Source: Barnesiella intestinihominis YIT 11860 | GTDB taxonomy: Bacteria; Bacteroidota; Bacteroidia; Bacteroidales; Barnesiellaceae | Direction of reading: 5' to 3' | Assembly: GCF_000296465.1 (NCBI RefSeq) | Contig: NZ_JH815205.1 | Span: forward strand, 186,001-250,000 | DNA length: 64,000 nt | Shown: in pieces, positions 4,623 through 60,158 of the stretch | Position numbering within the stretch: position 1 is the first letter of the stretch | How the letters are laid out: each line of letters opens with the position of its first letter | Made by a program: the position numbers and the translations under genes | Notes under the pieces: generated by a model | Database searches by the model: none | Seen by the model: the letters and a program-made list of their open reading frames with translations, nothing else | Told to the model about the DNA's origin: nothing

Positions 4623-4639
4623 TATTAGAAGTATAAATA

Positions 4640-4674
4640 TGGAAAAAGGATGATAACGTTCTTATCATCCTTTT
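4640..4674 (-). terminator. terminator after the ompH pair
   Basis: A perfect 13-bp stem (AAAAGGATGATAA at 4644-4656, TTATCATCCTTTT at 4662-4674) with a 5-base loop. Read leftward it ends in a T5 run, so it terminates minus-strand transcripts from ompH. Confidence 0.85.
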
Positions 4675-4698
4675 CGCAACCCCTCGACGAGGGAATAA

Positions 4699-5214
4699 TT
4701 ATTTCAATCCCAATTTCGCTTTCACCAACGGAGTCACATCTTCACTGGGTGCTCCCTGATAAATAACGATAGGATAAGCCAAATCAAAAATATAAGTAAA
4801 TTTACCCTCTGCCCCTACCGACTTAATGGCATCCATCAACTTCTGTTGAATAGGAGCGAAAAGAGCTTCTTGTTGTTTTTGAATATCCTGAGACGCCATT
4901 TCCCGGAAACTCTCGATACGAGATTGGGAATCTTGAACCTCCTGCATACGACGAGCACGTATCGTCTCGGGAATCGTATCGCCCAATGCCATATACTCTT
5001 TATACTTCTTCGTGAACTCTTCTTGAATTTTTACAAACTCATCTTCATATTTCTTATTAATATCTTGAAGAGTTTGCTCGGCAGTTGCCTTCTCTGGCAT
5101 CAACATAAAAATCTCCTGAGAGTTAACGGTACCGAATTTAAGGGCTTGTTGCGCTTGTGATACAAAACTCAAAGAGCAAATGCACACTGCGGCGAAAAGA
5201 AATTTCTTAATCAT
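4699..5214 (-). CDS. OmpH/Skp family periplasmic chaperone, second copy
   Basis: 171 residues with an N-terminal Sec signal (about residues 1-21, ending SQA-QQ). The mature part is a highly charged helical Skp-like body: KFGTVNSQEIF strand, then long coiled-coil arms rich in Glu, Lys and Gln at about residues 45-125, then a closing strand region (FTYIFDLAYPIVIYQG). Skp/OmpH trimers hold unfolded outer-membrane proteins on the way to BamA. It is the tandem paralogue of the gene at 5273, 58 bases apart, and both lie downstream of bamA on the same strand. Confidence 0.9.
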   Translation of the reverse strand: MIKKFLFAAVCICSLSFVSQAQQALKFGTVNSQEIFMLMPEKATAEQTLQDINKKYEDEFVKIQEEFTKKYKEYMALGDTIPETIRARRMQEVQDSQSRIESFREMASQDIQKQQEALFAPIQQKLMDAIKSVGAEGKFTYIFDLAYPIVIYQGAPSEDVTPLVKAKLGLK

Positions 5215-5272
5215 ACTATAATTTTTTTGTTTCTATACTGTAAGTTATGAATAATGGCACAAAAGTAAGCAT

Positions 5273-5788
5273 TTATTTTGAATATCCTAACTTTGTGAGC
5301 ACTTCATTACTAATATCTATCTTCGGCGACGCAAAAATAATATTCGGAGAAGAAGCTCTATCGATAACCATCATGTAGCCTTTATCTTCCGAAATCTTCT
5401 TAATGGCATTATAAATATCGTCTTGAATAGGCTTCATAAGACTTTCGCGCTTTTTGAACAACTCGCCCTCAGGGCCGAAATACTTACGGCGCAATTCAAC
5501 GACCTCCGTCTCCTTATCACGGATTTCCTCTTCTCGTTTTACCTTCATTTCCTCGGTAAGAAATACCAAATCCGATTGATAGTTTTTATACATTGTTTTA
5601 GCTTCGGCCGCCTTGTCGTCACACTCTTTTTGCCAACGTTGAGACACTTGGTTCAACTGTTCGTTGGCCATTTCGTACGAAGGAATATTTTTGAGTATAT
5701 ATTCCATATCGACCAAAGCATACTTCTGAGCTACCGACGACGCAGTAAAAGCTAGTACCGCCATCGCAAAAAGAACTATTCTTTTCAT
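5273..5788 (-). CDS. OmpH/Skp family periplasmic chaperone, first copy
   Basis: 171 residues, signal peptide at about 1-20 (LAFTASSVAQ), then the Skp body: KYALVDMEYILKNIPSY, charged helical arms at about residues 40-130 and a C-terminal DRASSPNIIFASPKIDIS strand. Same length as the neighbouring copy but clearly diverged, so this is an old duplication, as is common in this phylum. It follows bamA on the same strand after a hairpin terminator, so it may be partly independently expressed. Confidence 0.9.
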   Translation of the reverse strand: MKRIVLFAMAVLAFTASSVAQKYALVDMEYILKNIPSYEMANEQLNQVSQRWQKECDDKAAEAKTMYKNYQSDLVFLTEEMKVKREEEIRDKETEVVELRRKYFGPEGELFKKRESLMKPIQDDIYNAIKKISEDKGYMMVIDRASSPNIIFASPKIDISNEVLTKLGYSK

Positions 5789-31704: not shown

Positions 31705-31746
31705 CTCCTCCCCCTGCCGTGTCCCGTAGCCTTACGGGGTTTCACA
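31705..31746 (+). repeat. dispersed hairpin repeat, loop type B fragment
   Basis: CCTCCCCCTGCCGTGTCCCG followed by TAGCCTTACGGGGTTTCAC. The CCGTGTCCCGTAG/TTACGGGG core recurs at 43240, 48222 and 56793. Confidence 0.6.
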
Positions 31747-45063: not shown

Positions 45064-46261
45064 ACTCAAAGGGCATCCCCATGTCCAAAAAGGTACAGCC
45101 TATACGATATTGTTCGCCATGGGTTTTTGCCACCTATTGAACGATATGATTCAATCGGTTATCCCCGCCATGTATCCTGTCTTGAAAGATAATTTCGGGT
45201 TTACCTTCGCACAAATAGGCATCATCACACTGGTATTCCAACTTACCTCTTCCGTTTTCCAACCTTTTGTAGGACAATATGCCGACCGCCGGCCTCAGCC
45301 CTATTCATTATCCGCAGGCATGTGTTTTACCCTAACGGGGTTATTGCTGCTCGCTTTCGCCTCGAACTTTTTCTTGATTCTCCTCGCTGTCGCGATTATC
45401 GGTTGCGGTTCTTCGGTATTCCACCCCGAAGCATCCCGAGTGGCACAAATAGCATCGGGGGGCAGGAAAAGTCTGGCCCAGTCTATTTTTCAAGTCGGCG
45501 GAAACGGAGGAAGCGCCATCGGACCATTACTCGCCGCATTGATTATTATTCCTTACGGGCAACATGCCGTCGGGTGGTTTTCAATCGCAGCATTGCTCGC
45601 CTCTGCCATACTGGTACGGGTAGGATATTGGTACAAGCTGACGCTTTCCCAAACCGGAATGTCGCATCGAGCTCAACAAACGACAAGTTGTAATTTGAGT
45701 AAGAAAGCAATCCGCAATGCTCTGATTATTCTGGTAATCATGCTATTCTCGAAATACTTTTTTATCTCATGCATGACGAGTTATTTCACCTTCTTTTTAA
45801 TCGAAAAATTCGGCATCACGGTACAACAATCGCAACTTTGCCTATTCGCTTTTCTTGCGGCACTGGCCATAGGGACTTTGCTCGGAGGGTTCCTCGGCGA
45901 CCGGTACGGACGAAAATACGTCATTCTCTTTTCTATCCTCGGTGCAGCCCCCTTCACACTCGTACTACCGTACCTCAATCTGTTTTGGACGCTCGTCATA
46001 GCCGTTATCATCGGTTTCATCATCGCATCGGCCTTTTCTGCCATACTGGTTTATGCTACCGATTTAAAGCCGGATAAAGTAGGAATGATCTCAGGTATTT
46101 TCTTCGGACTTATGTTCGGACTAGGAGGAATCGGTTCCGCATTCTTCGGCTGGCTTGCTGATGAAACGAGTATAGAATTTATTTTCAAAGTCAGTACATT
46201 GTTACCTCTATTGGGTATCATCGCCGGATTTTTACCTAACATAAAACCCTCAAATCGATAA
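45044..46261 (+). CDS. MFS transporter, fosmidomycin-resistance (Fsr) type
   Basis: 405 residues, 12 hydrophobic segments. N-terminal FAMGFCHLLNDMIQSVIPAM is the Fsr-family signature region, and GGFLGDRYGRKYV is the MFS loop motif. The family exports fosmidomycin and probably other compounds. It overlaps the GntR gene and is followed closely by an ABM protein and two DNA-repair genes. Confidence 0.9.
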   Translation: MKSILIKLKGHPHVQKGTAYTILFAMGFCHLLNDMIQSVIPAMYPVLKDNFGFTFAQIGIITLVFQLTSSVFQPFVGQYADRRPQPYSLSAGMCFTLTGLLLLAFASNFFLILLAVAIIGCGSSVFHPEASRVAQIASGGRKSLAQSIFQVGGNGGSAIGPLLAALIIIPYGQHAVGWFSIAALLASAILVRVGYWYKLTLSQTGMSHRAQQTTSCNLSKKAIRNALIILVIMLFSKYFFISCMTSYFTFFLIEKFGITVQQSQLCLFAFLAALAIGTLLGGFLGDRYGRKYVILFSILGAAPFTLVLPYLNLFWTLVIAVIIGFIIASAFSAILVYATDLKPDKVGMISGIFFGLMFGLGGIGSAFFGWLADETSIEFIFKVSTLLPLLGIIAGFLPNIKPSNR

Positions 46262-46265
46262 CAAG

Positions 46266-46655
46266 ATGAAAGCAAAAGAAAATGCGCCCCTAACAACGTC
46301 TTCGAAAGTCGCTGTACTGTTCGAAGTAACACCTAAAAAAGAATATAAGGAAACCTACTTGCAACTCGGAGCTATGTTAAAATCCGAATTGACAAATATG
46401 CCCGGATTCATCAGCGTAGAACGATTTCTAAGTCTGAACGAAGAGGGGAAACTACTCAGCCTCTCTTTTTGGGAAAACGAAGAAGCAGCCTCCAATTGGC
46501 GTAATAAGATGAACCATCGTAACTGCCAAAAGAAAGGGCATGACTCGCTATTCGAAAAATACAAAATTTCCGTAGCCGAAGTCATTCGCCAATATACAAA
46601 AGACGACCGCCAAGAGGCCCCCGAAGACTCCAACCGTTATTTGACAACAAAATAA
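46266..46655 (+). CDS. antibiotic biosynthesis monooxygenase (ABM) domain protein
   Basis: 129 residues; the ABM ferredoxin-like core covers about 15-100 (VAVLFEVTPKKEYKETYLQL, PGFISVERFLSLNEEGKLLS, LSFWENEEAASNWRN). These are small cofactor-free oxygenases or dimeric binding proteins. Four bases after the MFS stop and five before alkA, within the same operon. Confidence 0.85.
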   Translation: MKAKENAPLTTSSKVAVLFEVTPKKEYKETYLQLGAMLKSELTNMPGFISVERFLSLNEEGKLLSLSFWENEEAASNWRNKMNHRNCQKKGHDSLFEKYKISVAEVIRQYTKDDRQEAPEDSNRYLTTK

Positions 46656-46660
46656 CAGAT

Positions 46661-47314
46661 ATGACAGAATATTTTCAATACGGAGAAAAAGAACTCTCTT
46701 ACTTGAAACAGAGGGACAAACGCCTGTCTGAAATCATAGACAAGGTAGGCTGGGTAAAAAGGAGAGTCATTCCGAACCTTTTTGCAGCATTGGTACATTC
46801 CATCGTAGGGCAGCAAATTTCAACAAAGGCTCATGAGACTATTTGGCAGCGGATACAATCTTCATTAGGAGAAATTACACCCCAAAGAGTCATAAGCCTG
46901 ACCGATGAAGAATTGCAACGCTTTGGCATCTCATTCAAAAAAGTGACCTACATTAAACGCGCAGCCACAAAGATATTGAACGGAGAGTTCGACATTCACG
47001 GGCTTTACGACAAGACCGACGAAGAGGTCATCGAATGCTTGTCAAAACTCGACGGGATAGGCACATGGAGTGCCGAAATGCTCATGTTATTTTCCATGCA
47101 ACGACCGGATATTCTAAGTTATAGCGACCTCGCCATTCAAAGAGGACTACGAATGGTATATCACCATCGCGACATAACCCGTAAACTGTTTGAAAAATAT
47201 CGCCGACGTTATTCGCCTTACAGCAGTGTGGCCAGCCTATACCTGTGGGCGGTAGCCGGTGGAGCCATCGAAGGAATGAAAGATTACGCAACGACTAAAA
47301 AGAAACGATCATGA
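46661..47314 (+). CDS. DNA-3-methyladenine glycosylase, AlkA type
   Basis: 217 residues. Helix-hairpin-helix GPD fold: LDGIGTWSAEMLMLF (HhH) and the catalytic Asp in LSYSDLAIQRGL. Lacks the N-terminal TBP-like domain of E. coli AlkA, as is normal for short relatives. Removes alkylated bases. Its stop overlaps the ogt start by 4 bases. Confidence 0.92.
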   Translation: MTEYFQYGEKELSYLKQRDKRLSEIIDKVGWVKRRVIPNLFAALVHSIVGQQISTKAHETIWQRIQSSLGEITPQRVISLTDEELQRFGISFKKVTYIKRAATKILNGEFDIHGLYDKTDEEVIECLSKLDGIGTWSAEMLMLFSMQRPDILSYSDLAIQRGLRMVYHHRDITRKLFEKYRRRYSPYSSVASLYLWAVAGGAIEGMKDYATTKKKRS

Positions 47315-47853
47315 ATACAAAACATGTGATTCTAACACAACACTATCCCTCTCCTTGCGGGGATTTAATACTCGGTTCATACGAAGACCGACTTTGCCTT
47401 TGCAACTGGGTGATAGAAAAACATCAGGGCAGAGTGGACAAAAGATTACAAAACCTGTTGAATGCGGACTATAAAGAAGGGAAATCGGATATCATTCAAG
47501 AAGCCGCCCGACAATTAGACGAGTATTTCAAAAGAGAGCGGACAACGTTCGATATTCCCATACTATTCACTGGTACGGATTTCCAGAAAAAAGTATGGCA
47601 CAAATTATTGGAAATCCCTTATGGACAAACTCTTTCTTATGGTGAAATGGCTAAACGACTGGACATACCGAACGCCGTTCGCGCCGTAGCGAATGCCAAC
47701 GGAGCAAACGCCATCTCCATTTTCGTTCCCTGCCATAGAGTGATCGGTAGCGACCGGTCTCTCACCGGTTACGGAGGCGGGCTCACAGCCAAAAAGTATT
47801 TGTTGGAATTGGAATCGATGGCTACTGTCGGGATATTCGCCAGCAGCCTGTAA
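47311..47853 (+). CDS. ogt: methylated-DNA--protein-cysteine methyltransferase
   Basis: 180 residues. The active-site Cys141 is in FVPCHRVIG, preceded by the DNA-binding helix AVRAVANANGAN. Direct reversal of O6-methylguanine. With alkA it forms an alkylation-repair pair, coupled to an exporter and GntR regulator upstream. Confidence 0.95.
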   Translation: MNTKHVILTQHYPSPCGDLILGSYEDRLCLCNWVIEKHQGRVDKRLQNLLNADYKEGKSDIIQEAARQLDEYFKRERTTFDIPILFTGTDFQKKVWHKLLEIPYGQTLSYGEMAKRLDIPNAVRAVANANGANAISIFVPCHRVIGSDRSLTGYGGGLTAKKYLLELESMATVGIFASSL

Positions 47854-47961
47854 CCCAAACTCAAATACTTATCCCCCTATATTTCCTCACCACGTGACAC
47901 ACCCCTATCGCGCTAAACGTGAGCAGAGGGAAAGGGTTAAAATGACAATCCAAATTTTCTT

Positions 47962-48035
47962 TCAACCCCTCCGTCTTGCAGACACCTCCCCTGCCGTGCC
48001 CCGCAGCATTGCGGAGCACGGCAGGGGAGGTGTTA
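47962..48035 (+). repeat. dispersed hairpin repeat, loop type B, best copy
   Basis: TCAACCCCTCCGTCTTGCAG, then a 24-bp stem (ACACCTCCCCTGCCGTGCCC to CGCA and its complement, one mismatch) with a GCAT loop. The outer part is that of type A copies, but the loop arm is GCCGTGC instead of TATATTTTGC. Confidence 0.8.
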
Positions 48036-48087
48036 AAAGTAACTCTCTATCTCATTTGCGATGAGCAGAAGGAGTGGGTTATATTTT

Positions 48088-48178
48088 TCTATTTCAACCC
48101 CCTCGCCCTCCGGGCACTCCCCCTATCGCTATGTGCACCCCGCAATGCTGCGGGGCACAGCAGGGGGGAGAGGGATAT
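48088..48178 (+). repeat. dispersed hairpin repeat, loop type B
   Basis: TTCAACCCCCTCGCCCTCCG, GGCACTCCCCCTATCGC, then GTGCACCCCGCAATGCTGCG with GGGCACAGCAGGGGGGAG; same modules with one arm diverged. Confidence 0.65.
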
Positions 48179-48206
48179 GCATCACTCTGTTCCCGTTATC
48201 GAAGGT

Positions 48207-48255
48207 ATTATCCCTTCTCTCCTTGCCGTGTCCCGTAGTATTACGGGGGACTCTG
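48207..48255 (+). repeat. dispersed hairpin repeat, loop type B fragment
   Basis: TCTCTCCTTGCCGTGTCCCG then TAGTATTACGGGGGACTCTG. Confidence 0.55.
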
Positions 48256-48365
48256 CATTAGCAATATAAAGGAGCATGTTCGCAAAGGGAAAGGAGTTGC
48301 TATGTATCTGTAAAATTGGTACAACTATCCGTAATTTATCTACATATATCACTAATATTCCCATT

Positions 48366-48373
48366 TATCTTTG
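48366..48373 (+). promoter_or_regulatory. candidate -7 box of the ferredoxin/TonB/ECF operon
   Basis: TATCTTTG, about 270 bases before the first gene. It is the best match in the region; no -33 element is evident. Confidence 0.4.
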
Positions 48374-48645
48374 TATTCTGAAATGAAGGTGATCTAAGCT
48401 CGGAAAAAAGAATGCCTATAAAATCGACATTTACACCATAGGCCGTTACTTTTCGAATCATATCGTCTTATTTCTTCCATTGCAAATGGAAAATCGAGAA
48501 GGAAAAAAAGAATATAAAAAACTCTTTTTTATTGATTATGAGCAAAAAAAATTAAAAAATCTTTGTGTATTTTCGTAGCGATTTTCTGTACTATGCCCAA
48601 CAGATTTATCGAAATATATCATTTAACAGCTAAAAACGAACCTTT

Positions 48646-50169
48646 ATGTTAAGAAAAATCAGGATAGTCGCAGCGACTATCTGTTTCACGCTAATCACCT
48701 TATTATTCCTCGATTTCACGGGGACTCTGCATCTGTGGTTCGGGTGGCTCGCTAAAATACAGTTCCTCCCGGCCGTATTGGCTTTGAACGTAGGTGTCGT
48801 CGCATTCCTCGTTATCCTCACTTTATTGTTCGGACGTGTCTACTGCTCGGTAATCTGTCCGCTCGGTGTATTCCAAGATATCGTTTCGTGGATATCGGGT
48901 AAACGAAAAAAGAACCAATTCCGTTATTCACCGGCTATCTCATGGCTGCGTTACAGCATGTTGGCCTTGTTCATCGTCGCCCTGCTTGCCGGATTCACTG
49001 CTATTGCGGCCCTTATCGCTCCATACAGCGCATACGGACGAATCGCATCCAATCTGTTCGCTCCACTCTATCAATGGGGAAACAATTTACTCGCTTACTT
49101 TGCCGAGCGTATCGACAGTTATGCGTTCTATTCCACCGACGTGTGGCTGAAAAGCATACCCACTTTTATCATTGCCCTCGTCACATTCGTCTCGTTAATT
49201 ATATTAGCATGGAAAAACGGACGCACCTATTGCAACACGATTTGCCCGGTGGGTACTGTTCTGGGGCTATTGTCCCGATTCTCTCTTTTCCGCCCCGTTA
49301 TCGACACGACAAAATGTAACGGTTGCCAATCGTGTGCCCGCAACTGCAAAGCCTCGTGCATCGATGCCAAAAACCACATCATCGATTACAGCCGTTGCGT
49401 GGCTTGCATGGATTGTATCGAAAAGTGCAGGCAGGGAGCTATACGATACATTCCCCGAAGAAAGACTATTTCGGAATCTGTCGAACCAGCACATGAAGAC
49501 AAAAAGGAAAATCCCAGACGAGAGTTCCTCTCGTTCGCCGGATTGTTGGCCGGTACTGCCTTATTGAAAGCTCAGGAGAAAAAAGTAGACGGAGGTCTCG
49601 CGGTCATCGAAGATAAAAAAATTCCCAACCGAATCACACCCATTACCCCGCCGGGTTCGCTAAGCGCATCGAACATAGCCCAGCATTGTACGGCATGCCA
49701 GTTGTGCATATCGGCTTGTCCCAATCAAGTCTTGCGGCCATCGGGTAATCTGATGACTTTCATGCAACCCGAAATGTCGTACGAACGCGGATATTGCCGT
49801 CCCGAATGTACCAAGTGTTCGGAGGTGTGCCCGACAGGGGCCATACGCCCCATCACCGTTGCCGAAAAATCGAGCATACAGATAGGCCACGCCGTGTGGG
49901 TGAAAAAGAACTGCATCCCGCTTACCGATGGAGTAGATTGCGGGAATTGTGCTCGACATTGTCCTGTCGGAGCTATACAAATGGTTCCGTTCCACGGCCG
50001 TCACCGCCATAGAGGAGGTCGCGAAAACAGCGAACAGGACAAGACCATAATGATCCCGGTTATCAATACGGAACGCTGTATCGGTTGCGGTACTTGCGAA
50101 AACCTGTGTCCGGCACGTCCGTTCAGCGCGATCTATGTAGAAGGTCACGAACACCATCGTATCATCTAA
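48646..50169 (+). CDS. membrane polyferredoxin fused to a second ferredoxin domain (NapH/NapG-like)
   Basis: 507 residues. Four or five N-terminal membrane helices (about 7-27, 41-63, 103-126, 170-189) with paired CxxxCP motifs (C67/C71 and C196/C200), as in NapH/polyferredoxins. Two 4Fe-4S clusters follow at about 224-234 and 251-261. At 291-310 there is RREFLSFAGLLAGTALLKAQ, a twin-arginine-like signal, after which comes a second ferredoxin section with Cys groups at about 348-358, 384-395, 423-439 and 478-488. NapH and NapG thus look fused. It probably passes electrons from the quinol pool across the membrane to the operon's reductases. Confidence 0.88.
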   Translation: MLRKIRIVAATICFTLITLLFLDFTGTLHLWFGWLAKIQFLPAVLALNVGVVAFLVILTLLFGRVYCSVICPLGVFQDIVSWISGKRKKNQFRYSPAISWLRYSMLALFIVALLAGFTAIAALIAPYSAYGRIASNLFAPLYQWGNNLLAYFAERIDSYAFYSTDVWLKSIPTFIIALVTFVSLIILAWKNGRTYCNTICPVGTVLGLLSRFSLFRPVIDTTKCNGCQSCARNCKASCIDAKNHIIDYSRCVACMDCIEKCRQGAIRYIPRRKTISESVEPAHEDKKENPRREFLSFAGLLAGTALLKAQEKKVDGGLAVIEDKKIPNRITPITPPGSLSASNIAQHCTACQLCISACPNQVLRPSGNLMTFMQPEMSYERGYCRPECTKCSEVCPTGAIRPITVAEKSSIQIGHAVWVKKNCIPLTDGVDCGNCARHCPVGAIQMVPFHGRHRHRGGRENSEQDKTIMIPVINTERCIGCGTCENLCPARPFSAIYVEGHEHHRII

Positions 50170-50187
50170 TCTCCAAAACGAAAAGCA

Positions 50188-51597
50188 ATGAAAAACGAAC
50201 ATAAAAAGAATTTAGACAGAAGGGATTTCCTGAAAGTATTGGGTGGTGCGGCTGCCGTCACATCGGCAACCCTTCTTCCCGGCTGCAAAAACAAACAAGA
50301 ATCGGCATACACGGCGACAACCGATATTCCCACCGACCAGATGACCTACCGGATAAACCCATCGACCCAAGACCGAGTATCTCTACTGGGTTACGGCTGC
50401 ATGCGCTGGCCGACCGTCTCGAACAACAGCGCCAGAGACAGCAGCGACGATATAGACCAAGAAACTGTCAATAAGCTGGTCGATGTCGCCATTGCCCACG
50501 GAGTAAATTATTTCGATACATCTCCCGCCTATTGCAAAGGCCGCTCGGAACGGGCTACCGGAATCGCCCTCAGCCGCTATCCGAGAGACAAATATTTCAT
50601 CGCCACGAAACTATCGAATTTCGCGCCCTCGACTTGGAGCCGGGAGGCTTCGATAGCCATGTATCACAATTCGTTCAAAGAACTACAAGTAAACTACATA
50701 GACTATTTGTTGCTGCATGGCGTAGGCATGGGGAACGGATTACAAGAGTTCAACGCCCGTTACATCGACAACGGGGTCCTCGATTTCCTCCTCACCGAAC
50801 GACAAGCCGGACGAATACGAAACCTCGGATTTTCTTACCACGGAGACATCAAGGTATTCGACTATCTTCTTTCCCGCCACGATGAATTCAAATGGGACTT
50901 CGTACAGATACAACTCAATTATGTCGATTGGAAGCATGCCAAAGAAGTAAACGAACGGAACACCAACGCCGAATATCTCTATGGAGAATTATCGAAACGG
51001 GGAATACCCGCCATTATCATGGAACCGTTATTAGGCGGCCGCCTGTCGAATGTACACGACCACATAGCCGCCAAACTGAAACAGAGGAAACCGGAATCGA
51101 GCGTGGCATCATGGGCATTCCGTTTTGCCGGCTCTTTTCCCGGTGTATTGACCGTACTGAGCGGTATGACTTATATGGAACACCTGCAAGATAATCTGCG
51201 CACGTTTTGTCCGCTCGACCCACTGAGCGACGCCGACAAAGAATTTCTGGAAGAGACAGCACAACAATTATTGCGTTACCCGACCATACCGTGCAACGAT
51301 TGCAAATATTGCATGCCTTGTCCTTACGGACTGGATATTCCGGGTATTCTGCTGCATTTCAACAAATGTATAAACGAGGGAAACATGCCTTCATCGTCCC
51401 GAGATGCCAATTATAGCAAAGCCCGCCGGGCGTTTCTTGTCGGGTATGACCGAAGTGTTCCCAAACTACGCCAAGCCAACCATTGTATCGGGTGCAACCA
51501 ATGCGTGCACCATTGTCCGCAAAACATTCATATCCCGGAAGAAATGCAACGCATCGACAAGTTTGTCGAAGACCTGAAACAAGGAAGAGAATTTTAA
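50188..51597 (+). CDS. aldo/keto reductase with Tat lipoprotein signal and C-terminal ferredoxin
   Basis: 469 residues. N-terminal RRDFLKVLGG (residues 11-20) followed by TLLPGC with Cys33 looks like a Tat signal with a lipobox. The AKR barrel covers about 50-350 (LLGYGCMRWP, YFDTSPAY, ATKLS, LLLHGVG with the His). C-terminal clusters CNDCKYCMPC (from 369) and CIGCNQCVHHC (from 433) bind two 4Fe-4S. A periplasmic AKR is odd because NAD(P)H is not available there; electrons may come from the clusters. Confidence 0.9.
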   Translation: MKNEHKKNLDRRDFLKVLGGAAAVTSATLLPGCKNKQESAYTATTDIPTDQMTYRINPSTQDRVSLLGYGCMRWPTVSNNSARDSSDDIDQETVNKLVDVAIAHGVNYFDTSPAYCKGRSERATGIALSRYPRDKYFIATKLSNFAPSTWSREASIAMYHNSFKELQVNYIDYLLLHGVGMGNGLQEFNARYIDNGVLDFLLTERQAGRIRNLGFSYHGDIKVFDYLLSRHDEFKWDFVQIQLNYVDWKHAKEVNERNTNAEYLYGELSKRGIPAIIMEPLLGGRLSNVHDHIAAKLKQRKPESSVASWAFRFAGSFPGVLTVLSGMTYMEHLQDNLRTFCPLDPLSDADKEFLEETAQQLLRYPTIPCNDCKYCMPCPYGLDIPGILLHFNKCINEGNMPSSSRDANYSKARRAFLVGYDRSVPKLRQANHCIGCNQCVHHCPQNIHIPEEMQRIDKFVEDLKQGREF

Positions 51598-51606
51598 AGC
51601 CTCGTT

Positions 51607-52755
51607 ATGGAATATAGAACATTAGGAAGAACCGGAATCCGGGTAAGTACCATCGCTCTTGGTTGCGAAGGGTTCATGCACAAAACCGCCGAAGAGGTCA
51701 AGGCCGATTTCGATTTCGCCATAGAAAACGGAATCAATTTCGTGGACATCTATTCTTCGAATCCCGTCCTTAGGAGCCATATCGGATTTGCCTTAGAGGG
51801 AAGACGAGAAAATTTCGTCATACAAGGTCACCTATGTACCACATGGGAAAACGACCAATACCTGCGTACTCGCAACCCACAAAAGACCATAGCCTCTTTC
51901 GAAGCGCTTTTGAAACAACTGCGCACCGATTATCTCGACATCGGTATGATACATTACGTGGATGCCGAAAAAGACTTTCACACCGTATTCGATCATGAAA
52001 CCATCGAAATTGCGCAACGGTTGAAAGCCGAGGGAAAGATACGGGCCATCGGCATGAGCAGCCACAATCCGACCGTGGCGAGCATGGCGGTCAAAACGGG
52101 GCTGATAGATGTCGTTTTATTTTCCATCAATCCCTGTTACGACCTGCTACCTCCCAACGAAGATGTCGACACGCTGTGGGCAGAAGAAAGTTATACCAAC
52201 GCTTTGCAGAATATAGACCCGGTTCGGGAACAATTCTATACTTTGTGCGAAAGGGAAGGCGTGGGTATCGACGTAATGAAAGTTTATGGCGGAGGCGACT
52301 TATTGGATAAAGAAAATTCTCCCTTCGGCCGGGCCATGACACCCGTGCAGGCCATCGAATATGCACTGACGCGTCCGGGTGTGGCAGCCGTCATGGTAGG
52401 CTGCAAAAATAGGGAAGAAATCGCCGAGGCAGTCGCTTGGAGCCATGCCACTCCACAAGAACGCGACTATACCGCCGTAATGACCGGCTTGGAGAAATTC
52501 TCGTGGAAGGGTCATTGCATGTATTGCGGTCATTGCGCACCTTGTACTTCAAAAATAGATATTGCCGCCGTGAACAAATTTTATAACTTAACTGTTGCAC
52601 AAGGAGAAATACCCGAAACCGTGCGAGAACACTACAAGGCACTCACACACCATGCCTCGGAATGTGTCGAATGCGGCGCATGCGAAGTCCGTTGCCCGTT
52701 CGGAGTTAAAATCATAGAGTCCATGCATCAGGCAGCTCAACGGTTCGGGTTCTAA
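51607..52755 (+). CDS. aldo/keto reductase with C-terminal ferredoxin, cytoplasmic
   Basis: 382 residues, no signal peptide. AKR barrel at about 1-285 (LGRTGIRVSTIALG, NFVDIYSSNP, IGMIHYV) and two 4Fe-4S groups near the C-terminus: CMYCGHCAPC from 304 and CVECGACEVRC from 353. Catalytic Tyr/Lys positions are less typical than in classical AKRs. Ten bases after its exported relative; together they suggest a two-compartment reduction pathway. Confidence 0.9.
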   Translation: MEYRTLGRTGIRVSTIALGCEGFMHKTAEEVKADFDFAIENGINFVDIYSSNPVLRSHIGFALEGRRENFVIQGHLCTTWENDQYLRTRNPQKTIASFEALLKQLRTDYLDIGMIHYVDAEKDFHTVFDHETIEIAQRLKAEGKIRAIGMSSHNPTVASMAVKTGLIDVVLFSINPCYDLLPPNEDVDTLWAEESYTNALQNIDPVREQFYTLCEREGVGIDVMKVYGGGDLLDKENSPFGRAMTPVQAIEYALTRPGVAAVMVGCKNREEIAEAVAWSHATPQERDYTAVMTGLEKFSWKGHCMYCGHCAPCTSKIDIAAVNKFYNLTVAQGEIPETVREHYKALTHHASECVECGACEVRCPFGVKIIESMHQAAQRFGF

Positions 52756-52769
52756 ACACAGTAATAAAA

Positions 52770-53201
52770 ATGACTACCGAAAAAAAACAAGAAATCATCA
52801 ATCGGCTCTTTGCCGAACAATGTTCCTGCATTATTTGCAATAATCACGAAATACGCTTGTTTCACGAACGAGGCGTAAAAGATATTTACCGATTATTGAA
52901 AGAAGAACCGGATTTTCTCAACGGATCATTCATTGCCGACAAAGTCATAGGAAAGGCCGCAGCGGCCTTGATGATCTTGGGAGGCGTAAAAGAAGTGTTC
53001 GCCGGTGTCATCAGTCGGCCGGCACTCTCCTTATTTCAATCTCACGGCATAGAACCCGAATACAAAATCGAGACAGAATACATTATCAACCGTACCCGAA
53101 CCGGCTGGTGTCCGTTGGAGAGTCGTTGTAAAAATTTGGAAACTCCGGAAGATTGTCTCGCAGAGATAGACGATTTCATGAACACGATGAAGAATATATA
53201 A
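52770..53201 (+). CDS. DUF1893 protein
   Basis: 143 residues. Matches the DUF1893 (TM1506) type: SCIICNNHEIRLFHERGVKD, then DKVIGKAAAALMILGGVKEV with the conserved IGKAAA, then ISRPALSLFQSHGIEPEY. The fold is cytidine-deaminase-like; the role is unknown. It carries several Cys, including a C-terminal RTGWCPLESRC pair. Between the reductases and the TonB receptor in the same operon. Confidence 0.85.
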   Translation: MTTEKKQEIINRLFAEQCSCIICNNHEIRLFHERGVKDIYRLLKEEPDFLNGSFIADKVIGKAAAALMILGGVKEVFAGVISRPALSLFQSHGIEPEYKIETEYIINRTRTGWCPLESRCKNLETPEDCLAEIDDFMNTMKNI

Positions 53202-53205
53202 ACGC

Positions 53206-55128
53206 ATGAAGACAAAACTTTTACTTTTATTTTTTGCATTAGGAGAAATAACGGCATCGGCTCAAACAGACTCGTTGCCAAATATAACGAAAGCCTCTAA
53301 TGGAAAACTGATCGACGCGATACAAATCCATGAAGTGGTCGTTACCGGAACTCGCAATGAGACCGATATTCGTCATCTGCCTATGACGATTTCCGTCATA
53401 GACCGTAAACAAATCGAGCAGAGCATGCAACCGTCGATTCTCCCTATACTTACCCAACAAGTACCCGGACTATTCATCACAGCCAGAGGTATCATGGGTT
53501 ACGGTGTATCGGGAGGTGCGGCCGGTGGCATGTCGTTACGGGGAATAGGCAGCGGATCGGGTCGCTTGATGGTTCTCATTGACGGACACCCCCAATACAT
53601 GGGATTAATGGGACACCCTATCGCCGATGCTTACCAATCGCTAATGGCCGAACGAGTGGAAGTCTTGCGCGGACCAGCCTCGGTATTGTACGGCTCGAAC
53701 GCTATGGGTGGCGTTATCAACATCGTTACCCGCCAATTACATGAAGAGGGAGTAAAAACCAACATCAACTTAGGATACGGTTCGTTCAACACTTTACAGA
53801 GCGAAGTCACGAACCGCATTCGAAAAGGCGGATTTACCAGCCTGATAAGCGGTTCGTACAACCGAACCGACGGACATCGCCGAAATATGGGGTTCGAGCA
53901 ATACGGGGGATATGCCAAACTGGGTTATGAATTTTCTCCCTATTGGAATATTCGCGGCGACGTAAATGTCACCCACTTCAACGCTTCGCAACCGGGTGAG
54001 GTAACCGACCCGATGATCGACGCAGACCAAAGTATCACCCGTGGTATGACCTCGGTTGCCGTAGAAAACCGCTACGAACGCACATCGGGAGCTGTGAGCT
54101 TTTTCTACAACTGGGGAGACCATTGGATCAACGACGGTTATACCGCCAACCCCGACGACAAGAATAGTCCCAAACCATACCGGTTCGACTCGCACGACGA
54201 CATGATGGGCATATCGTGGTATCAAAGCGCACAGCTTTTTACCGGCAACCGCCTGACTGCCGGAGTTGACTACTACCGCTTCGGTGGCAAAGCACAAAAC
54301 CGTTACGTCGAAGGTGAACGAAATGGAGAACGTGAACACATCGTCGACAAAGTACAGCATGAAATAGCCGGTTATATCGATTTTCGGCAAGACATCAGCC
54401 ATTGGCTCACCCTCGATGCCGGTATCCGTATCGACCACCATTCGCATATCGGTACGGAATGGATTCCACAAGCGGGATTATCGTTCCATTTACCCGGCTC
54501 CATCGAATTGAAAGCAAGTGCAGGCAAAGGATTTCGCTATCCTACCATACGGGAAATGTATATGTTCCCGCCCAAAAATCCCGACCTTCGCCCAGAGTCC
54601 ATGTGGAATTACGAACTGGCCTTCGCCCAACGTTTACTCGACGGAAGGTTGTCGTATGGTATCAATGTTTTTTATATCGACGGGAAAAATCTGATCGTCG
54701 CTGTGCCTCGTGCGGGAGCGACACCCTTGAACATGAACACCGGAAAAATAGACAACACCGGAGTCGAAGCGGAAGCTGCTTACCGTATTCACCCCCATTG
54801 GTCGATCGAAACCAATTACAGCTATCTGCACATGGACAATCCGGTACTCGGCGCACCCGAACATAAGTTCTACGCCGGAGCCATGTTCTCCAAAAATCGC
54901 TGGACTGTCTCCACCGGTCTCCAATATGTAGCCAATCTTTACACAGACGTAGACCATGTCCAAACCGAAGATTTCGTACTATGGAACATCAACGGGTCAT
55001 TCAAAGTCACCGAATGGTTCGACATTTGGGCACGTGGAGAAAACCTCTTGGCACAACGATACGAAATAAATGCCGGATACCCCATGCCCAAAGCTACAAT
55101 CATGGCCGGTATAAACGTAAAATTTTAA
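53206..55128 (+). CDS. TonB-dependent receptor
   Basis: 640 residues: signal about 1-20, plug domain about 38-165 (VVTGTRNETDIRHLPMTISV, LMVLIDGHPQYMGL, VLYGSNAMGGVINIVTR), then a 22-stranded barrel ending in Phe (MAGINVKF). No SusD partner follows, so it is a siderophore/cofactor/metal-type receptor rather than a glycan SusC. The ligand is unknown. Positioned between reductases and the DUF362 and ECF genes. Confidence 0.95.
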   Translation: MKTKLLLLFFALGEITASAQTDSLPNITKASNGKLIDAIQIHEVVVTGTRNETDIRHLPMTISVIDRKQIEQSMQPSILPILTQQVPGLFITARGIMGYGVSGGAAGGMSLRGIGSGSGRLMVLIDGHPQYMGLMGHPIADAYQSLMAERVEVLRGPASVLYGSNAMGGVINIVTRQLHEEGVKTNINLGYGSFNTLQSEVTNRIRKGGFTSLISGSYNRTDGHRRNMGFEQYGGYAKLGYEFSPYWNIRGDVNVTHFNASQPGEVTDPMIDADQSITRGMTSVAVENRYERTSGAVSFFYNWGDHWINDGYTANPDDKNSPKPYRFDSHDDMMGISWYQSAQLFTGNRLTAGVDYYRFGGKAQNRYVEGERNGEREHIVDKVQHEIAGYIDFRQDISHWLTLDAGIRIDHHSHIGTEWIPQAGLSFHLPGSIELKASAGKGFRYPTIREMYMFPPKNPDLRPESMWNYELAFAQRLLDGRLSYGINVFYIDGKNLIVAVPRAGATPLNMNTGKIDNTGVEAEAAYRIHPHWSIETNYSYLHMDNPVLGAPEHKFYAGAMFSKNRWTVSTGLQYVANLYTDVDHVQTEDFVLWNINGSFKVTEWFDIWARGENLLAQRYEINAGYPMPKATIMAGINVKF

Positions 55129-55150
55129 TTTCTTTCATTCACACACATAT

Positions 55151-56134
55151 ATGAAAAAGTACATCAATATCGCCCTATGCGCTTTCTTATCCGCCCTTAT
55201 AGGGATAAGCTGTAACACCCGCGCTCAAAATTCGGAAACTCAACTTTCCAAAAAGGACAATGAAACGCCAAAAGTATATATGTTCAAAGAGATTTCCCCC
55301 GAGAACTTAGTGAAAATATACGAAGCGTTGAACCGTAAAGCGACCGGAAAAGTCGCAGTAAAACTATCTACCGGAGAACCGGGTGGTCATAACTTCTTGC
55401 AACCAGCTCTTATCAAAGACCTCGTACAGAAGGTAAACGGAACGATCGTCGAATGTAACACGGCCTACGGGGGTGGAAGAGCCGACACAGAAAGTCATCT
55501 GAAAGCTGCTGCCGACCACGGTTTCACGGCTATCGCCCCTGTCGACATCATGGATTCGGAAGGAGAAACAGCCCTACCCGTACACGGCGGTAAGCACCTT
55601 AAAGAGAATTATGTGGGAGCCCATTACCCGAACTACGACTTTACCATAATCCTCTCTCATTTCAAAGGCCATGCTATGGGAGGATTCGGCGGAGCAATAA
55701 AAAACATGTCCATCGGCATCGCTTCATCTACCGGAAAAGCATGGATACATTCTGCCGGGAAAACCAAAGGGAACCCGTGGGAAAACCTGCCTGCACAAGA
55801 CGATTTCTTGGAATCGATGGCCGAAGCCGCCAAATCGGTGGCTGAACATTGCGGTGAGAAAATCATTTATATAAGTGTAGCCAATAACCTATCTGTGGAT
55901 TGCGACTGCGATGCCTCCCCCGAAGATCCGAAAATGGGCGACATAGGTATCCTCGCATCACTCGACCCGGTCGCTCTCGACAAGGCTTGTACCGATTTGG
56001 TGAGAGCATCGGAAGACCACGGAAAAATCCACCTCATCGAACGTATCGATTCCCGTCACGGTATGCATACGTTGGAATACGGGGAACAAATAGGTTTGGG
56101 CAGTCAAAAATACGAACTGGTAAAACTGGATTAA
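55151..56134 (+). CDS. DUF362 lipoprotein
   Basis: 327 residues. The lipoprotein signal has Cys21 (LIGISCNTR). The body is a DUF362 domain (about 60-320): AVKLSTGEPGGHNFLQPALI, ILSHFKGHAMGGFGGAIKNM, SIGIASSTGKAWIHS, ASLDPVALDKACTDLV. DUF362 proteins often accompany ferredoxins, but no ferredoxin tail is present here. The mature protein is probably periplasmic or outer-membrane anchored. Function unknown. Confidence 0.88.
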   Translation: MKKYINIALCAFLSALIGISCNTRAQNSETQLSKKDNETPKVYMFKEISPENLVKIYEALNRKATGKVAVKLSTGEPGGHNFLQPALIKDLVQKVNGTIVECNTAYGGGRADTESHLKAAADHGFTAIAPVDIMDSEGETALPVHGGKHLKENYVGAHYPNYDFTIILSHFKGHAMGGFGGAIKNMSIGIASSTGKAWIHSAGKTKGNPWENLPAQDDFLESMAEAAKSVAEHCGEKIIYISVANNLSVDCDCDASPEDPKMGDIGILASLDPVALDKACTDLVRASEDHGKIHLIERIDSRHGMHTLEYGEQIGLGSQKYELVKLD

Positions 56135-56156
56135 TAACAATAAATAATAAACGACT

Positions 56157-56666
56157 ATGCAAACGACCACGGCAAAACTCTATTCCTTAGAGTATAACAA
56201 TGCGAGAACCTACGGTTTTTCCGCCTTGTTCATAGCGGGGAATATTCTTCTTCCCCAATTGTGTCATACGATTCATCTGGGTGGCCCCATGCTATTGCCC
56301 ATCTATTTCTTCACGCTTATCGGAGCCTATAAATACGGGTGGCGCGTGGGATTGCTCACGGCAGTACTCTCGCCCTTCATAAACTCCATGCTGTTCGGGA
56401 TGCCTCTACCCGAAGTCCTACCCGCGATTCTCTCCAAATCGATATTGTTGGCCGCAGCCGCCGGATATGCCGCATATCGATTCGGGAAAGTCTCTCTACT
56501 CATCTTGACGGGAGTCGTACTCTCCTATCAAGTAGCAGGGAGCCTTGTAGAATGGGCTATTGCAGGTAATTTTTTCACCGCCATACAAGATTTTCGAATA
56601 GGCATTCCCGGCATGCTTCTGCAAATATTCGGGGGTTATATCGTTTTAAGACTAATGACCAAATAA
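56157..56666 (+). CDS. ECF transporter S component-like membrane protein
   Basis: 169 residues, five or six membrane helices (about 18-36, 42-60, 64-85, 96-112, 117-135, 145-165). The N-terminal LYSLEYNNARTYGFSALFIA and short length fit substrate-binding S components of energy-coupling-factor transporters. EcfA and EcfT are not here, so it would share a module encoded elsewhere. Its presence at the end of a TonB receptor operon implies import of the same ligand across the inner membrane. The vitamin-like substrate is unknown. Confidence 0.75.
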   Translation: MQTTTAKLYSLEYNNARTYGFSALFIAGNILLPQLCHTIHLGGPMLLPIYFFTLIGAYKYGWRVGLLTAVLSPFINSMLFGMPLPEVLPAILSKSILLAAAAGYAAYRFGKVSLLILTGVVLSYQVAGSLVEWAIAGNFFTAIQDFRIGIPGMLLQIFGGYIVLRLMTK

Positions 56667-57013
56667 TAAAACCGAACCTATTCGCATTGTGCGAGTAAAG
56701 GAAGAGGAAGTATGACGACAATACAGAGAGGAAAGCCCAATAAAAGGCGATTCTGAGAGAGGCAAGCAGTATTCCTATTTCAGAATTTCCCCTGCCGTGT
56801 CCCAGCATTACGGGGAATGACTGCACAGGAGAGGAGAAAATTAAAGATATTAATTCAAATAGCTTCTAACCCTTTTACTCAGAGTACTTCTGTATGCGTG
56901 GTCAGAAACTGTCATTTTTTAATGGGGTTGTGTCGATGTTTTGACACAACCCCATTTTCTATATTGGATTCTACCCAAATAATATTCTGTTATAAAATTG
57001 TTCCCGACGATCG
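56667..57013. other. convergent intergenic region with a repeat fragment and terminator
   Basis: A type B repeat fragment (CCCCTGCCGTGTCCCAGC, ATTACGGGG at 56788-56816) and a hairpin at 56921-56956: AATGGGGTTGTGTC pairs with GACACAACCCCATT around an 8-base loop, followed by T's on the plus strand. Confidence 0.6.
56921..56958 (+). terminator. terminator after the ferredoxin/TonB/ECF operon
   Basis: A 14-bp perfect stem with 8-base loop and a short T run to the right, about 255 bases after the last gene and between convergent genes. Confidence 0.75.
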
Positions 57014-59026
57014 TTACGGTTCTGTCGTTTCCTCCGGAGTAATCGTCACCACATCGACACTGTTTTTGTGCCCGTAGAAAGGACTCTGAGGTTTATAAGT
57101 GGTATTGGGCTCCCCGGTTCTGTCATTGATGTAATAAACGTTTTGAGCCGGGTTGCAATTATTGATTTCTATGGCTGCCGACCAACTGATGTTAATTCCA
57201 CCGTCGCCAATATTCCCTATAAAACCTGATGATGACGAAATACTCGAATAACGTATATAGACATTTTCCGTCTGACAATCATCAAACGATACGCCTCGAT
57301 CGCCCAACACTTGTCCGACAAGACCACCGGCCTGATATCCCGTGAGATGTACATCTGTCGCAGAACAGTTTTTTAAAGCGGCGACTCTATTCCCGACACT
57401 TCCTCCGCCGGAACCAATCCAACCGACCAGACCACCGAGATTTTGAGAAGGAGTGGCAGACGACTTAATCTGTATGTGTCTGACGTGTACATTCTCGAAC
57501 TTGCTGTTCATACTCCACTGATTACCTCCGGTATAACCGATACACCCTGCAAAATAAGAGAACTCTTTGCTGTGATCGACGGGTTCTCCGTCTACATCTT
57601 TTACCGGGAACTCCGCATGGGCAAGACCATTGATCGTTATATTTTCGAAAGTAAGGTTCTTCATGATTCCGTCGAATTTACCCCATACGCCGGTATATGC
57701 ATTATATCTATCCAAAACAAATGAACCCAGCTTATACTCATAGACCGCCCCGAACTTCCCGCTCATGGAAAAATTGCGCAACGTGTGACCTTGTCCGTCG
57801 ACCGTATATGTCCTACCGCTGGAACCGGGATAAATCGGGCTCCACTCGACACCGCTCATATCTATATCGTTGCAGATACGCAAGGTAAAACCGGGGGTAG
57901 CCGTAAGCATATCATCGATATGAGTAGGCAGCCAAGCAAACTCTTCTCTCGTATAGACCGAATAGGTATTGGTCTGTTCATCGTAAGCCGGTTGAGAAGG
58001 TGTGATTTCCTCCGGATTCCACCATTCTTCGCCCTCGATCCATTCGTTCTTGAAACCTTCTTGGATATTTACATCTATCGTTCCGCCCACAGTCAACAGA
58101 TTTCCCAAAATCGTAGTGAGATAATTCCTTTGTACGGGTATATTGGTTGTAAAATCTTTTGTAACGACCGGGGCTGTTCCTTTCAACATCTCCAAACTGA
58201 AATGTATGGCACGTTGCTCGTCGCCGGTAATGAGATAGTCGATTACCAACGTACGGTTATTCGCAGTAGCATCATATCCCCCTTCATAAAATTTATCACC
58301 TGTTTCATCTTGCATAATCGCTGCGGTATAAACCTCCGAACTTTCGGCATCGGCACTACCGACAGCCTCGCCGGTAACGGCATTTAAAGCAGAGAATCGT
58401 ACACAATCGTGATAAGCGACCTTGAAATTATCGGGCATCTCCATGCCTTCGGATGCCCAATCGGTGGTAATCACACGAAGTTTTGCAAACGGGCGTTTCA
58501 AAGTCATGGTTTCACCGAACGTTTGTGTCACCGAGATATTTTTCATAAAGAAATAGGCATCTCTACTCTCGTCGTTCAATTGAGCATCAAGCCCATCTTT
58601 TATCGAAATGTCGGTAAAATCGGACGTGTTATAATGCAAATCGGACGTTTCTCCTTGTTTTACAAAATCGGCCCACGCTACAAATTTATAGGTATTGTTC
58701 GGCGTAAGACGAAATTCGAAGGAAACAGGTCCATAGGTATCGACTACCTGAGTCTGGGGTGCAACGAGCAATGTCGCACCATCTTCGGAATAAACAGCCA
58801 CCTGATAACGAAGATCGTACTTACTCCAATCTACGTTTGTCAATCCTCCTTGTGCACTATTCGTACCGGTCACCGCACGTGTCACCTGCAAGGCTTCGGG
58901 TGCTTCGAACATGATACGCACTGCGTCGCCGTTCGGGTTCGCCCCGGGTTCGTCCAATTCATTGGAACAGCCTGTCATCAGTCCCAACAAAGCCATTCCC
59001 GCTAAAAAATAATAACTCTTTTTCAT
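57014..59026 (-). CDS. fimbrillin-like lipoprotein with DUF6562 region and GLUG-type beta-helix
   Basis: 670 residues. Lipoprotein signal with Cys20 (GLMTGCSNE). Residues about 35-320 form a fimbrillin/Mfa2-like DUF6562 part (RIMFEAPEALQVTRAVTG, YKFVAWADFVKQG, TTNIPVQRNYLTTILGNLLT). Residues about 350-640 form repeats of the GLUG type (GQGHTLRNFSM, GGLVGWIGSGGGSVGN, AGGLVGQVLGD). Likely a surface-exposed fimbrial tip or adhesin. Last gene of a three-gene minus-strand locus. Confidence 0.85.
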   Translation of the reverse strand: MKKSYYFLAGMALLGLMTGCSNELDEPGANPNGDAVRIMFEAPEALQVTRAVTGTNSAQGGLTNVDWSKYDLRYQVAVYSEDGATLLVAPQTQVVDTYGPVSFEFRLTPNNTYKFVAWADFVKQGETSDLHYNTSDFTDISIKDGLDAQLNDESRDAYFFMKNISVTQTFGETMTLKRPFAKLRVITTDWASEGMEMPDNFKVAYHDCVRFSALNAVTGEAVGSADAESSEVYTAAIMQDETGDKFYEGGYDATANNRTLVIDYLITGDEQRAIHFSLEMLKGTAPVVTKDFTTNIPVQRNYLTTILGNLLTVGGTIDVNIQEGFKNEWIEGEEWWNPEEITPSQPAYDEQTNTYSVYTREEFAWLPTHIDDMLTATPGFTLRICNDIDMSGVEWSPIYPGSSGRTYTVDGQGHTLRNFSMSGKFGAVYEYKLGSFVLDRYNAYTGVWGKFDGIMKNLTFENITINGLAHAEFPVKDVDGEPVDHSKEFSYFAGCIGYTGGNQWSMNSKFENVHVRHIQIKSSATPSQNLGGLVGWIGSGGGSVGNRVAALKNCSATDVHLTGYQAGGLVGQVLGDRGVSFDDCQTENVYIRYSSISSSSGFIGNIGDGGINISWSAAIEINNCNPAQNVYYINDRTGEPNTTYKPQSPFYGHKNSVDVVTITPEETTEP

Positions 59027-59060
59027 GATGAAATAATATAAAATGGTTAAAAATATATTC

Positions 59061-60158
59061 TCAATCGGGTATCACCACAACATGTTCATTATCGAAATCA
59101 TCGTCAATACCGATATCGCCGCTTCCTATGGTCTTTGTCAAAAACGGCCCCTTAATAACGGTCTCTCTATTGCGATAAAGGGGCACGTCGATATTCTGGT
59201 AATGATTTATTTCTTTCCCATTTCCATCGTATACAAAGACATCTACCAGCACGTGGTCTTCCCGACGATCCGAAGCAAGCACATAATCATAAGCCAAAAG
59301 AAGCGTTCCATCGTTGGTCAGTGTCGTGGGAGCGGTTTCCATTGTACGAGTCTCGACAAAAGCATTGGGCATTTCTGTTCCCACATTATATCCGACACTG
59401 ACATATTGCTTGTATATGATTTTAATATGCAAATCGTCCACAGCACTCCTTTTCTTTCTAAACTCTTGTAAATCGGTAGCCCATAACCGAAAACGGCCAG
59501 AGGCTCGCTCCATATATACCGAAACCATATGACCATCGGCAGCAGCCCCAGAAGCCTCATTTCCCGACAAACTAACCGGACCTGCTTTATCATCTCGGCT
59601 CGAATCGACTATAAAATCACAATTCCCGGCAGCCGAATTTTTATGATGATTATCCAACGGTTTATGAGATACATTCGCCCTAACGGCATCGAGTTTATCG
59701 GTACTGAAATGCCAGTCGGCAGGCTCTTCCTTCGGCACATAATCGGCCCATGCCAACACCTTATAATTTCCATCTGCCAAACAGAAATACAATGTATCTT
59801 GCGGAGCGTCTGTCAATCTTTCTACCGATATTTCACGGCGTTCCACCAGATTGCCTTTATTCACATCGTCCATCTCCCCCGGCATTTCATACAGCTCGAC
59901 AACAAAGCGCAAACACAATCGCTCATCGGCTGTGTAATTTCCCGAAAGGACAGGTTCTAAATCATTTATCGAAGATTCACCCTCAGCATCATACGTCAAT
60001 TCTTTATAATACACAGGAGGTGTACGATCGGCATTCAGTTCCACCATTACCCATGTTTTCTCCGACTCGGGATATTGATGGATCGTTTTATCACATGCCG
60101 TTACGAATAACGACACAATGCAAACAAACGCTATGATATGAAAACCGTACTCTTTCAT
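59061..60158 (-). CDS. DUF6562-type fimbrial accessory lipoprotein
   Basis: 365 residues. Lipoprotein signal with Cys22 (FVTACDKT). The body resembles the N-terminal half of its neighbour (YKVLAWADYVPKEEPADWHF, VDVFVYDGNGKEINHYQN, IDVPLYRNRETVIKGPFLT), so the two are related. Mfa2/FimB-like anchors of this class cap or anchor fimbriae. Between the DUF3575 gene and the adhesin gene in one operon. Confidence 0.85.
   Translation of the reverse strand: MKEYGFHIIAFVCIVSLFVTACDKTIHQYPESEKTWVMVELNADRTPPVYYKELTYDAEGESSINDLEPVLSGNYTADERLCLRFVVELYEMPGEMDDVNKGNLVERREISVERLTDAPQDTLYFCLADGNYKVLAWADYVPKEEPADWHFSTDKLDAVRANVSHKPLDNHHKNSAAGNCDFIVDSSRDDKAGPVSLSGNEASGAAADGHMVSVYMERASGRFRLWATDLQEFRKKRSAVDDLHIKIIYKQYVSVGYNVGTEMPNAFVETRTMETAPTTLTNDGTLLLAYDYVLASDRREDHVLVDVFVYDGNGKEINHYQNIDVPLYRNRETVIKGPFLTKTIGSGDIGIDDDFDNEHVVVIPD

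Follow-up and report, generated by a model that had tools for sequence, protein, structure and literature searches.

Seven genes on the plus strand, at positions 48646-56666 of a 64,000-nucleotide stretch of the Barnesiella intestinihominis YIT 11860 genome (the window, i.e. the whole stretch that was analysed), form a real, conserved and modular unit of Bacteroidales. The best explanation for it, which we put forward tentatively, is a modular extracytoplasmic redox unit of this order provided with its own outer-membrane receptor. The genes are separated by 18, 9, 14, 4, 22 and 22 bases and encode successively a fusion of NapH-like and NapG-like proteins (NapGH), an aldo/keto reductase (AKR) with a twin-arginine translocation (Tat)-type signal and a ferredoxin tail (AKR1), a second AKR-ferredoxin (AKR2), a TM1506/DUF1893 protein (TM1506), a TonB-dependent receptor, a DUF362 lipoprotein and an S component, a fold known from energy-coupling factor (ECF) transporters. 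An earlier note made from the sequence alone had described seven same-strand genes with gaps of 4-22 bases, and the positions of these open reading frames (ORFs) and their family labels were confirmed.

NapGH would link the membrane or cytoplasmic side to its periplasmic polyferredoxin as an electron carrier, and AKR1, exported via Tat, would receive or deliver these electrons through its ferredoxin tail; TM1506 is associated with AKR1 as a putative partner. The TonB receptor would admit to the periplasm a single specific small ligand, probably of cofactor type; there AKR1, or a Tat-exported DUF362 protein in a second architecture, would act on it as substrate. The S component, where present, would move ligand or product across the inner membrane, presumably inwards, without an ECF motor. 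The earlier note had proposed that a substrate crosses the outer membrane, is reduced in the periplasm, then imported and reduced again inside. The best reading remains that uptake through the outer membrane is coupled to redox chemistry in the periplasm; import of the ECF kind, another reduction in the cytoplasm and a reductive direction of electron flow are not established.

A conserved and modular gene cluster

Searching 295 genomes of the order with the S component gave 35 matches, 34 of which were counted after a weak one (G118, E 9.3e-4) was dropped. Neighbourhoods from the searched genomes and 80 from named genomes amounted to 115 loci, 112 of them distinct once three duplicates were removed; the duplicates remain in the NapGH, AKR1 and TM1506 alignments. 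The 80 named-genome loci are the closest 80 of at least 561 relatives and are not a fair sample. A partner was counted when its gene lay on the same strand within 9 kb of the S component and, since contig ends cut many loci, the counts are lower bounds.

NapGH accompanies the S component in 67 of the 112 loci, TM1506 in 61, AKR1 in 55, the TonB receptor in 43 and a phosphoribosyltransferase (PRT) in 15; rarer partners are Tat-type DUF362 (12), the DUF362 lipoprotein (10) and AKR2 (two, one a fragment). Among the 85 loci covered for 6 kb or more upstream and 3 kb or more downstream, 56 have NapGH. The full seven-gene order is repeated in an uncultured Rikenellaceae metagenome-assembled genome (L096), Bacteroides fragilis displays the order NapGH-AKR1-TM1506-TonB-S (L104, L138), and shorter versions occur in dozens of Bacteroidales. 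At the level of the 295 genomes, TM1506 is present in 30, 27 of which also have AKR1 (Fisher 1e-21), and the S component is found together with TM1506 in 24 (5e-22) and with AKR1 in 23 (6e-13), all three values being uncorrected for kinship. The co-occurrence of these genes in other Bacteroidales, and the position of the TonB and S-component genes inside the recurring cluster, are in agreement with the earlier grouping.

AKR1 itself is encoded in 49 of the 295 genomes at E 1e-60. Forty stretches fetched around AKR1 or TM1506 matches not yet covered, a part of all such matches, contain AKR1 in 39 cases and NapGH in 36. Of the three AKR1 stretches that have no NapGH, two stop at a contig end, and in L200 other ORFs lie between NapGH and AKR1. 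The genes that follow NapGH-AKR1 in 20 regions gave no clue to the substrate.

The repeated occurrence of the same genes side by side and in conserved order, across many genomes, puts their grouping beyond chance. It is very improbable that independent genes merely share a promoter region here: the variable composition of the loci and the lack of any scored partner in nine of the 85 well-covered ones would suit such a loose neighbourhood, but the co-occurrence across 295 genomes, the conserved order, the strict pairing of AKR1 or DUF362 with NapGH and the shared reading frames (see below) argue against it.

Putatively exported redox proteins

NapGH is a poly-Fer4 protein according to Pfam, and the NCBIfam NapH and NapG models match it in succession, both with scores under the curated equivalog cut-offs (67.4 versus 213 bits and 68.3 versus 269 bits, respectively). 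In its relatives (n=103) the CxxxCP motif and the Fe-S cysteines are conserved at 97% or more. In periplasmic nitrate reductase, NapGH is the quinol-oxidising path; the cluster likewise has a NapH-like membrane part and a NapG-like polyferredoxin, but fused into one protein and with an AKR or a DUF362 protein as partner. An internal Tat-like segment around residues 288-312, with RRxF in 72 of the 103 relatives, suggests that the polyferredoxin end may itself need Tat. In the 67 S-component loci with NapGH, the predicted exported partner is AKR1 in 55 and Tat-type DUF362 in the remaining 12, and none of the 55 AKR1 loci is devoid of NapGH.

AKR1 matches the AKR family (Pfam, 1.5e-33) and Fer4, together with a TAT_signal match just under cut-off (21.3 versus 22.7 bits). 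The catalytic tetrad of AKRs is Asp-Tyr-Lys-His; D110-Y115-K141-H177 are intact in all 94 AKR1 sequences and eight cysteines in 93 of them, three rows being duplicate loci. The twin arginine belongs to an RRDFL motif at residues 11-15, and RRx[FLMVI] is present in 90 of the 94 proteins. The lipobox pattern as set matches 51 of them, and most of the misses shown carry YGC instead of the residues asked for.

TatC is encoded in the genome. Its presence in each of the 34 S-component genomes is by itself of little information, since TatC is widespread (246 of 295 genomes). In 26 of the 112 loci its gene is also close to the S component, at 0.8-0.9 kb past the S-component middle in 25 loci and at 2.7 kb in the other (TatA and TatC beside the S component were recognised by eye), and tatA-tatC adjoin NapGH-AKR1(-TM1506/TonB) clusters in L181, L182, L197, L201 and L210. 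The Tat route supposed by the earlier note thus finds TatC in this genome and tatC beside the S component in many relatives; with its twin-arginine signal and a Tat system at hand, AKR1 is a candidate Tat substrate.

A signal-bearing flavodoxin is encoded in 11 of the 112 loci and a Tat-type flavin mononucleotide (FMN) reductase in L042. Owing to these neighbours, we consider reduction of the ligand more likely than its oxidation. In the oxidative version, which we hold to be somewhat unlikely, periplasmic AKR1 would oxidise a ligand of alcohol type that the TonB receptor brings in, and the electrons would pass via the ferredoxin tail and NapGH to menaquinone, for example for fumarate respiration. 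The intact tetrad and the nearest solved relatives of AKR1, several of which are L-galactose dehydrogenases, speak for this direction, which is also thermodynamically easier with menaquinone, but NapGH is known as a quinol-oxidising path, and the flavodoxin and FMN reductase neighbours point to reducing power.

TM1506 falls into the TM1506/DUF1893 family (PF08973, 2.6e-49, 166.7 bits versus a cut-off of 27), the sequence family of the PDB relatives 1vk9 and 9e9a. It is found with AKR1 in 45 of the 61 S-component loci that have it. AKR1 and TM1506 share a single open frame in G139, G221 and G229, where an ATG at the junction leaves separate starts possible. In G021, G029 and G096 TM1506 reads without stop into the TonB precursor, with a receptor start possible inside; such frames are also listed under L148, L149 and L176. 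From this arrangement, TM1506 is perhaps made with AKR1 and possibly exported with it. Conservation reaches at least 97% at each of the residues D57, K58, G61, K62, S82, N107, C114, P115 and E117. A phylum-wide search found TM1506 in two of 395 genomes, both already in the set, and so brought no outside context; no described function of DUF1893/TM1506 was found in the open-access literature (preprints excluded).

AKR2 also matches the AKR family (Pfam, 9.3e-20) and Fer4. The catalytic Lys is a His in five of five AKR2 sequences, the place of the Tyr being uncertain across a gap, and the tetrad is not recovered. Without this Lys, and with AKR2 so rare in the other S-component loci (only 2 of 112), the second reduction inside the cell that had been proposed is weakened and stays unproved.

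The DUF362 protein (Pfam, 6.8e-50) is modelled at pLDDT 76, with weak loops, and shows a LarA fold: 11 of the 12 best entries are named racemases or LarA-like, with fold matches at Z 11.6-13.4 and the next row at 5.4. A K-x-H-x9-K-N motif is present in 25 of 25 DUF362 proteins of both subtypes, counted ungapped since the alignment of the Tat subtype probably has a short gap in the wrong place. In LarA, H174 and K184 are catalytic and cofactor-bearing. Profile alignment to the LarA-like 9q2u puts a Lys of the DUF362 protein against K184, weakly (E 0.19). DUF362 and DUF2088 are both placed in Pfam clan CL0471 (PMC11770544). The fold is thus common with the LarA nickel-pincer racemase superfamily; in contrast to the latter, the cluster protein is predicted to be exported and its host genomes have no detected LarC. 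LarC was searched for in 24 genomes and found in none (the same search finds it in 6 of 14 controls), and LarE is over cut-off in none of 16 genomes, with weaker matches in all 16. A home-made nickel-pincer cofactor is therefore unlikely.

In the second architecture (e.g. L066, L108, L112), the S component is associated with PRT, sometimes TonB, Tat-type DUF362 and NapGH. None of the 15 S-component loci with PRT has AKR1 or TM1506.

Receptor, S component and surroundings

The TonB receptor displays the Pfam barrel and plug. Its orthologues are 50-73% identical, whereas the remaining receptors of the six genomes compared stay at 34% or less, over parts; identity reaches 72-73% within the genus and 50-52% in G144 and G230, which have the second architecture. 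Judged by these identities, the TonB receptors of both architectures are one group. Since the receptor group is single and S-component residues are invariant across both architectures, one ligand is the simplest reading. Vitamin B12 was rejected as this ligand: the best whole-length NCBIfam receptor model is indeed that of B12, far under its cut-off (147.5 versus 599.7 bits). Queuosine uptake was also rejected, the accessible portion of PMC11130926 showing no such gene set. No riboswitch was detected in window positions 46000-60000, in the whole window or in 16 loci, only tRNAs. Anti-phage defence was discarded as well, with just two marginal BrxP matches, on Fe-S parts. In L039 (777-1358) and L043 (10025-10603) a methyltransferase is encoded between the S component and the TonB receptor, the receptor of L039 being only 39% identical.

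The S component has the weakest family label of the seven proteins (Pfam ECF_trnsprt, 20.3 bits, below the cut-off of 30.7), and a PDB profile search with it returned a single irrelevant match, with no S component listed. Its AlphaFold model (pLDDT 92) fits solved S components along its full length: it aligns with RibU of Thermotoga maritima at a VIA-align Z of 15.7 (2.7 A, 151 residues) and with other S components down to Z 10.8; Foldseek ranks S components first, yet at E 0.01 and above. RibU as best structural match does not name riboflavin as the ligand. Residues N29, H37, F51, F52, T53, G81, M82, P83 and Q125 are invariant in the 34 S-component sequences, from both architectures. EcfT (PF02361) was not found in this genome, nor in 31 of the 34 S-component genomes, and is over cut-off in three. 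The former term 'ECF-type S component' is thus borne out by structure as regards the fold but not as an ordinary ECF importer and, in view of the missing EcfT, is better read as 'solitary S component'.

The AxxxA motif of helix 1, tied to EcfT contact in PMC11109136, is present in the window protein (A23, A27) and occupies this position in 4 of the 34 sequences. According to PMC6072759, BtuM is an S component of organisms without ECF module, bar one exception, with BtuB co-located, and solitary BtuM and BioY carry vitamins (PMC6072759, PMC11109136). Our cluster resembles BtuB with BtuM, and solitary BioY, in the S-component fold, in that no ECF module was found and in the TonB receptor gene nearby. 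It differs by the added, putatively exported redox chain and by the absence of cobalamin or other riboswitches among those searched for. BtuM is characterised by cobalamin binding with a Cys as axial ligand.

Some S-component loci present other features. The contig that bears L111, a locus of Bacteroidales type, goes under the name Ruminococcus flavefaciens and was probably mis-sorted from a metagenome. Right after the S component, L081, L099, L115, L117 and L065 encode another AKR, more remote (29-31% to AKR1). An S component that has TM1506 only is preceded in L046 by a protein of 401 aa (4562-5764) whose similarity to deoxyhypusine synthase is weak and under cut-off.

Table 1. Features of the cluster (window positions)
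Feature	Position	Strand	Size and basis
NapGH: NapH-like membrane protein fused to NapG-like polyferredoxin	48646..50169	+	507 aa; Pfam Fer4, NCBIfam NapH/NapG
AKR1: Tat-type lipoprotein, aldo/keto reductase with two-cluster ferredoxin tail	50188..51597	+	469 aa; Pfam
AKR2: AKR-ferredoxin, no export signal, His at the catalytic Lys position	51607..52755	+	382 aa; Pfam, alignment
TM1506/DUF1893 protein, probable AKR1 partner	52770..53201	+	143 aa; Pfam, frames shared with AKR1
TonB-dependent receptor	53206..55128	+	640 aa; Pfam, NCBIfam, orthologue identities
DUF362 lipoprotein, LarA-type fold	55151..56134	+	327 aa; Pfam, structural model, motif
Solitary S component, six-helix ECF S-component fold	56157..56666	+	169 aa; structural model, no EcfT in genome
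Terminator-like hairpin, likely transcript end	56921..56956	+	16 pairs, beyond last gene

The promoter consensus of Bacteroidales, TTTG-N17-23-TANNTTTG, has no match upstream of the NapGH gene, the first of the cluster. Terminator-like sites in the region number nine against a shuffle mean of 11.1, and are thus not above chance. Just upstream, genes for an alkyltransferase-like protein (47311-47853) and a DNA glycosylase (46661-47314), both named by eye, overlap by four bases. Copies of a CCCCTGCCGTGYCCY-type sequence, found at window positions 47982-48033, 48152-48166, 48220-48234, 56789-56803 and 31711-31725 (six matches allowing up to two mismatches, versus 0.18 expected; one pair forms a 24-base inverted repeat), constitute a small palindromic repeat family between genes.

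Alternatives and meaning

Several points weigh against an extracytoplasmic redox unit as we propose it. Fe-S clusters have no known use in an AKR and, for reducing a carbonyl, menaquinol is only a weak electron donor. AKR1 is missing from 11 of the 34 S-component genomes and, besides the nine well-covered loci without scored partner, six more have tatC alone. The AKR1-TM1506 frames point to the periplasm for TM1506 and the TM1506-TonB frames to the cytoplasm. In three genomes of the same genus, which have the NapGH-AKR1-AKR2-TonB set (with DUF362 in one of the three), the S component and TM1506 were not found. Inner-membrane import is therefore optional rather than essential to the unit, and this is the main result against the formerly proposed chain of import and second reduction. 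Finally, the TonB receptor of this group is missing from most of the 40 AKR1/TM1506 stretches, so the receptor is not always needed.

That most fetched AKR1 regions have NapGH-AKR1 without TonB also favours another explanation, which we consider unlikely, whereby TonB and the S component would import a cofactor or precursor for the exported enzymes and not their substrate, NapGH-AKR1 acting on something else. PRT and TM1506 indeed share no locus, and BtuM and BioY offer examples of solitary S components carrying vitamins (PMC6072759, PMC11109136). However, the same-genus genomes retain TonB yet have no S component, and the riboswitch searches of the window and 16 loci were negative.

The redox unit with its own receptor is the explanation that we prefer. 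A bolder and improbable reading would be the salvage of a pyridine-nucleotide-like or pincer-type cofactor from other microbes: TonB and the motor-less S component would take it up, in the periplasm LarA-fold DUF362 and AKR1-TM1506 would bind, reduce or mature it, and its handling as base or nucleotide would fall to TM1506 or PRT. If true, a scavenged cofactor would let bacteria that have no LarC, and no LarE over cut-off, perform LarA-type chemistry.

No description of this gene set, including DUF362 or NapH together with an AKR, was found in the open-access literature (preprints excluded) and, as far as this search reaches, the module is undescribed. If our explanation is right, it would represent an undescribed route by which gut Bacteroidales process a scarce molecule between their membranes, some of them importing it without an ATP motor. 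It would also place DUF1893 and exported DUF362, two families whose function is unknown, in a context for the first time, and supply a candidate Tat client in Bacteroidales, in a testable gene set also present in Bacteroides fragilis.

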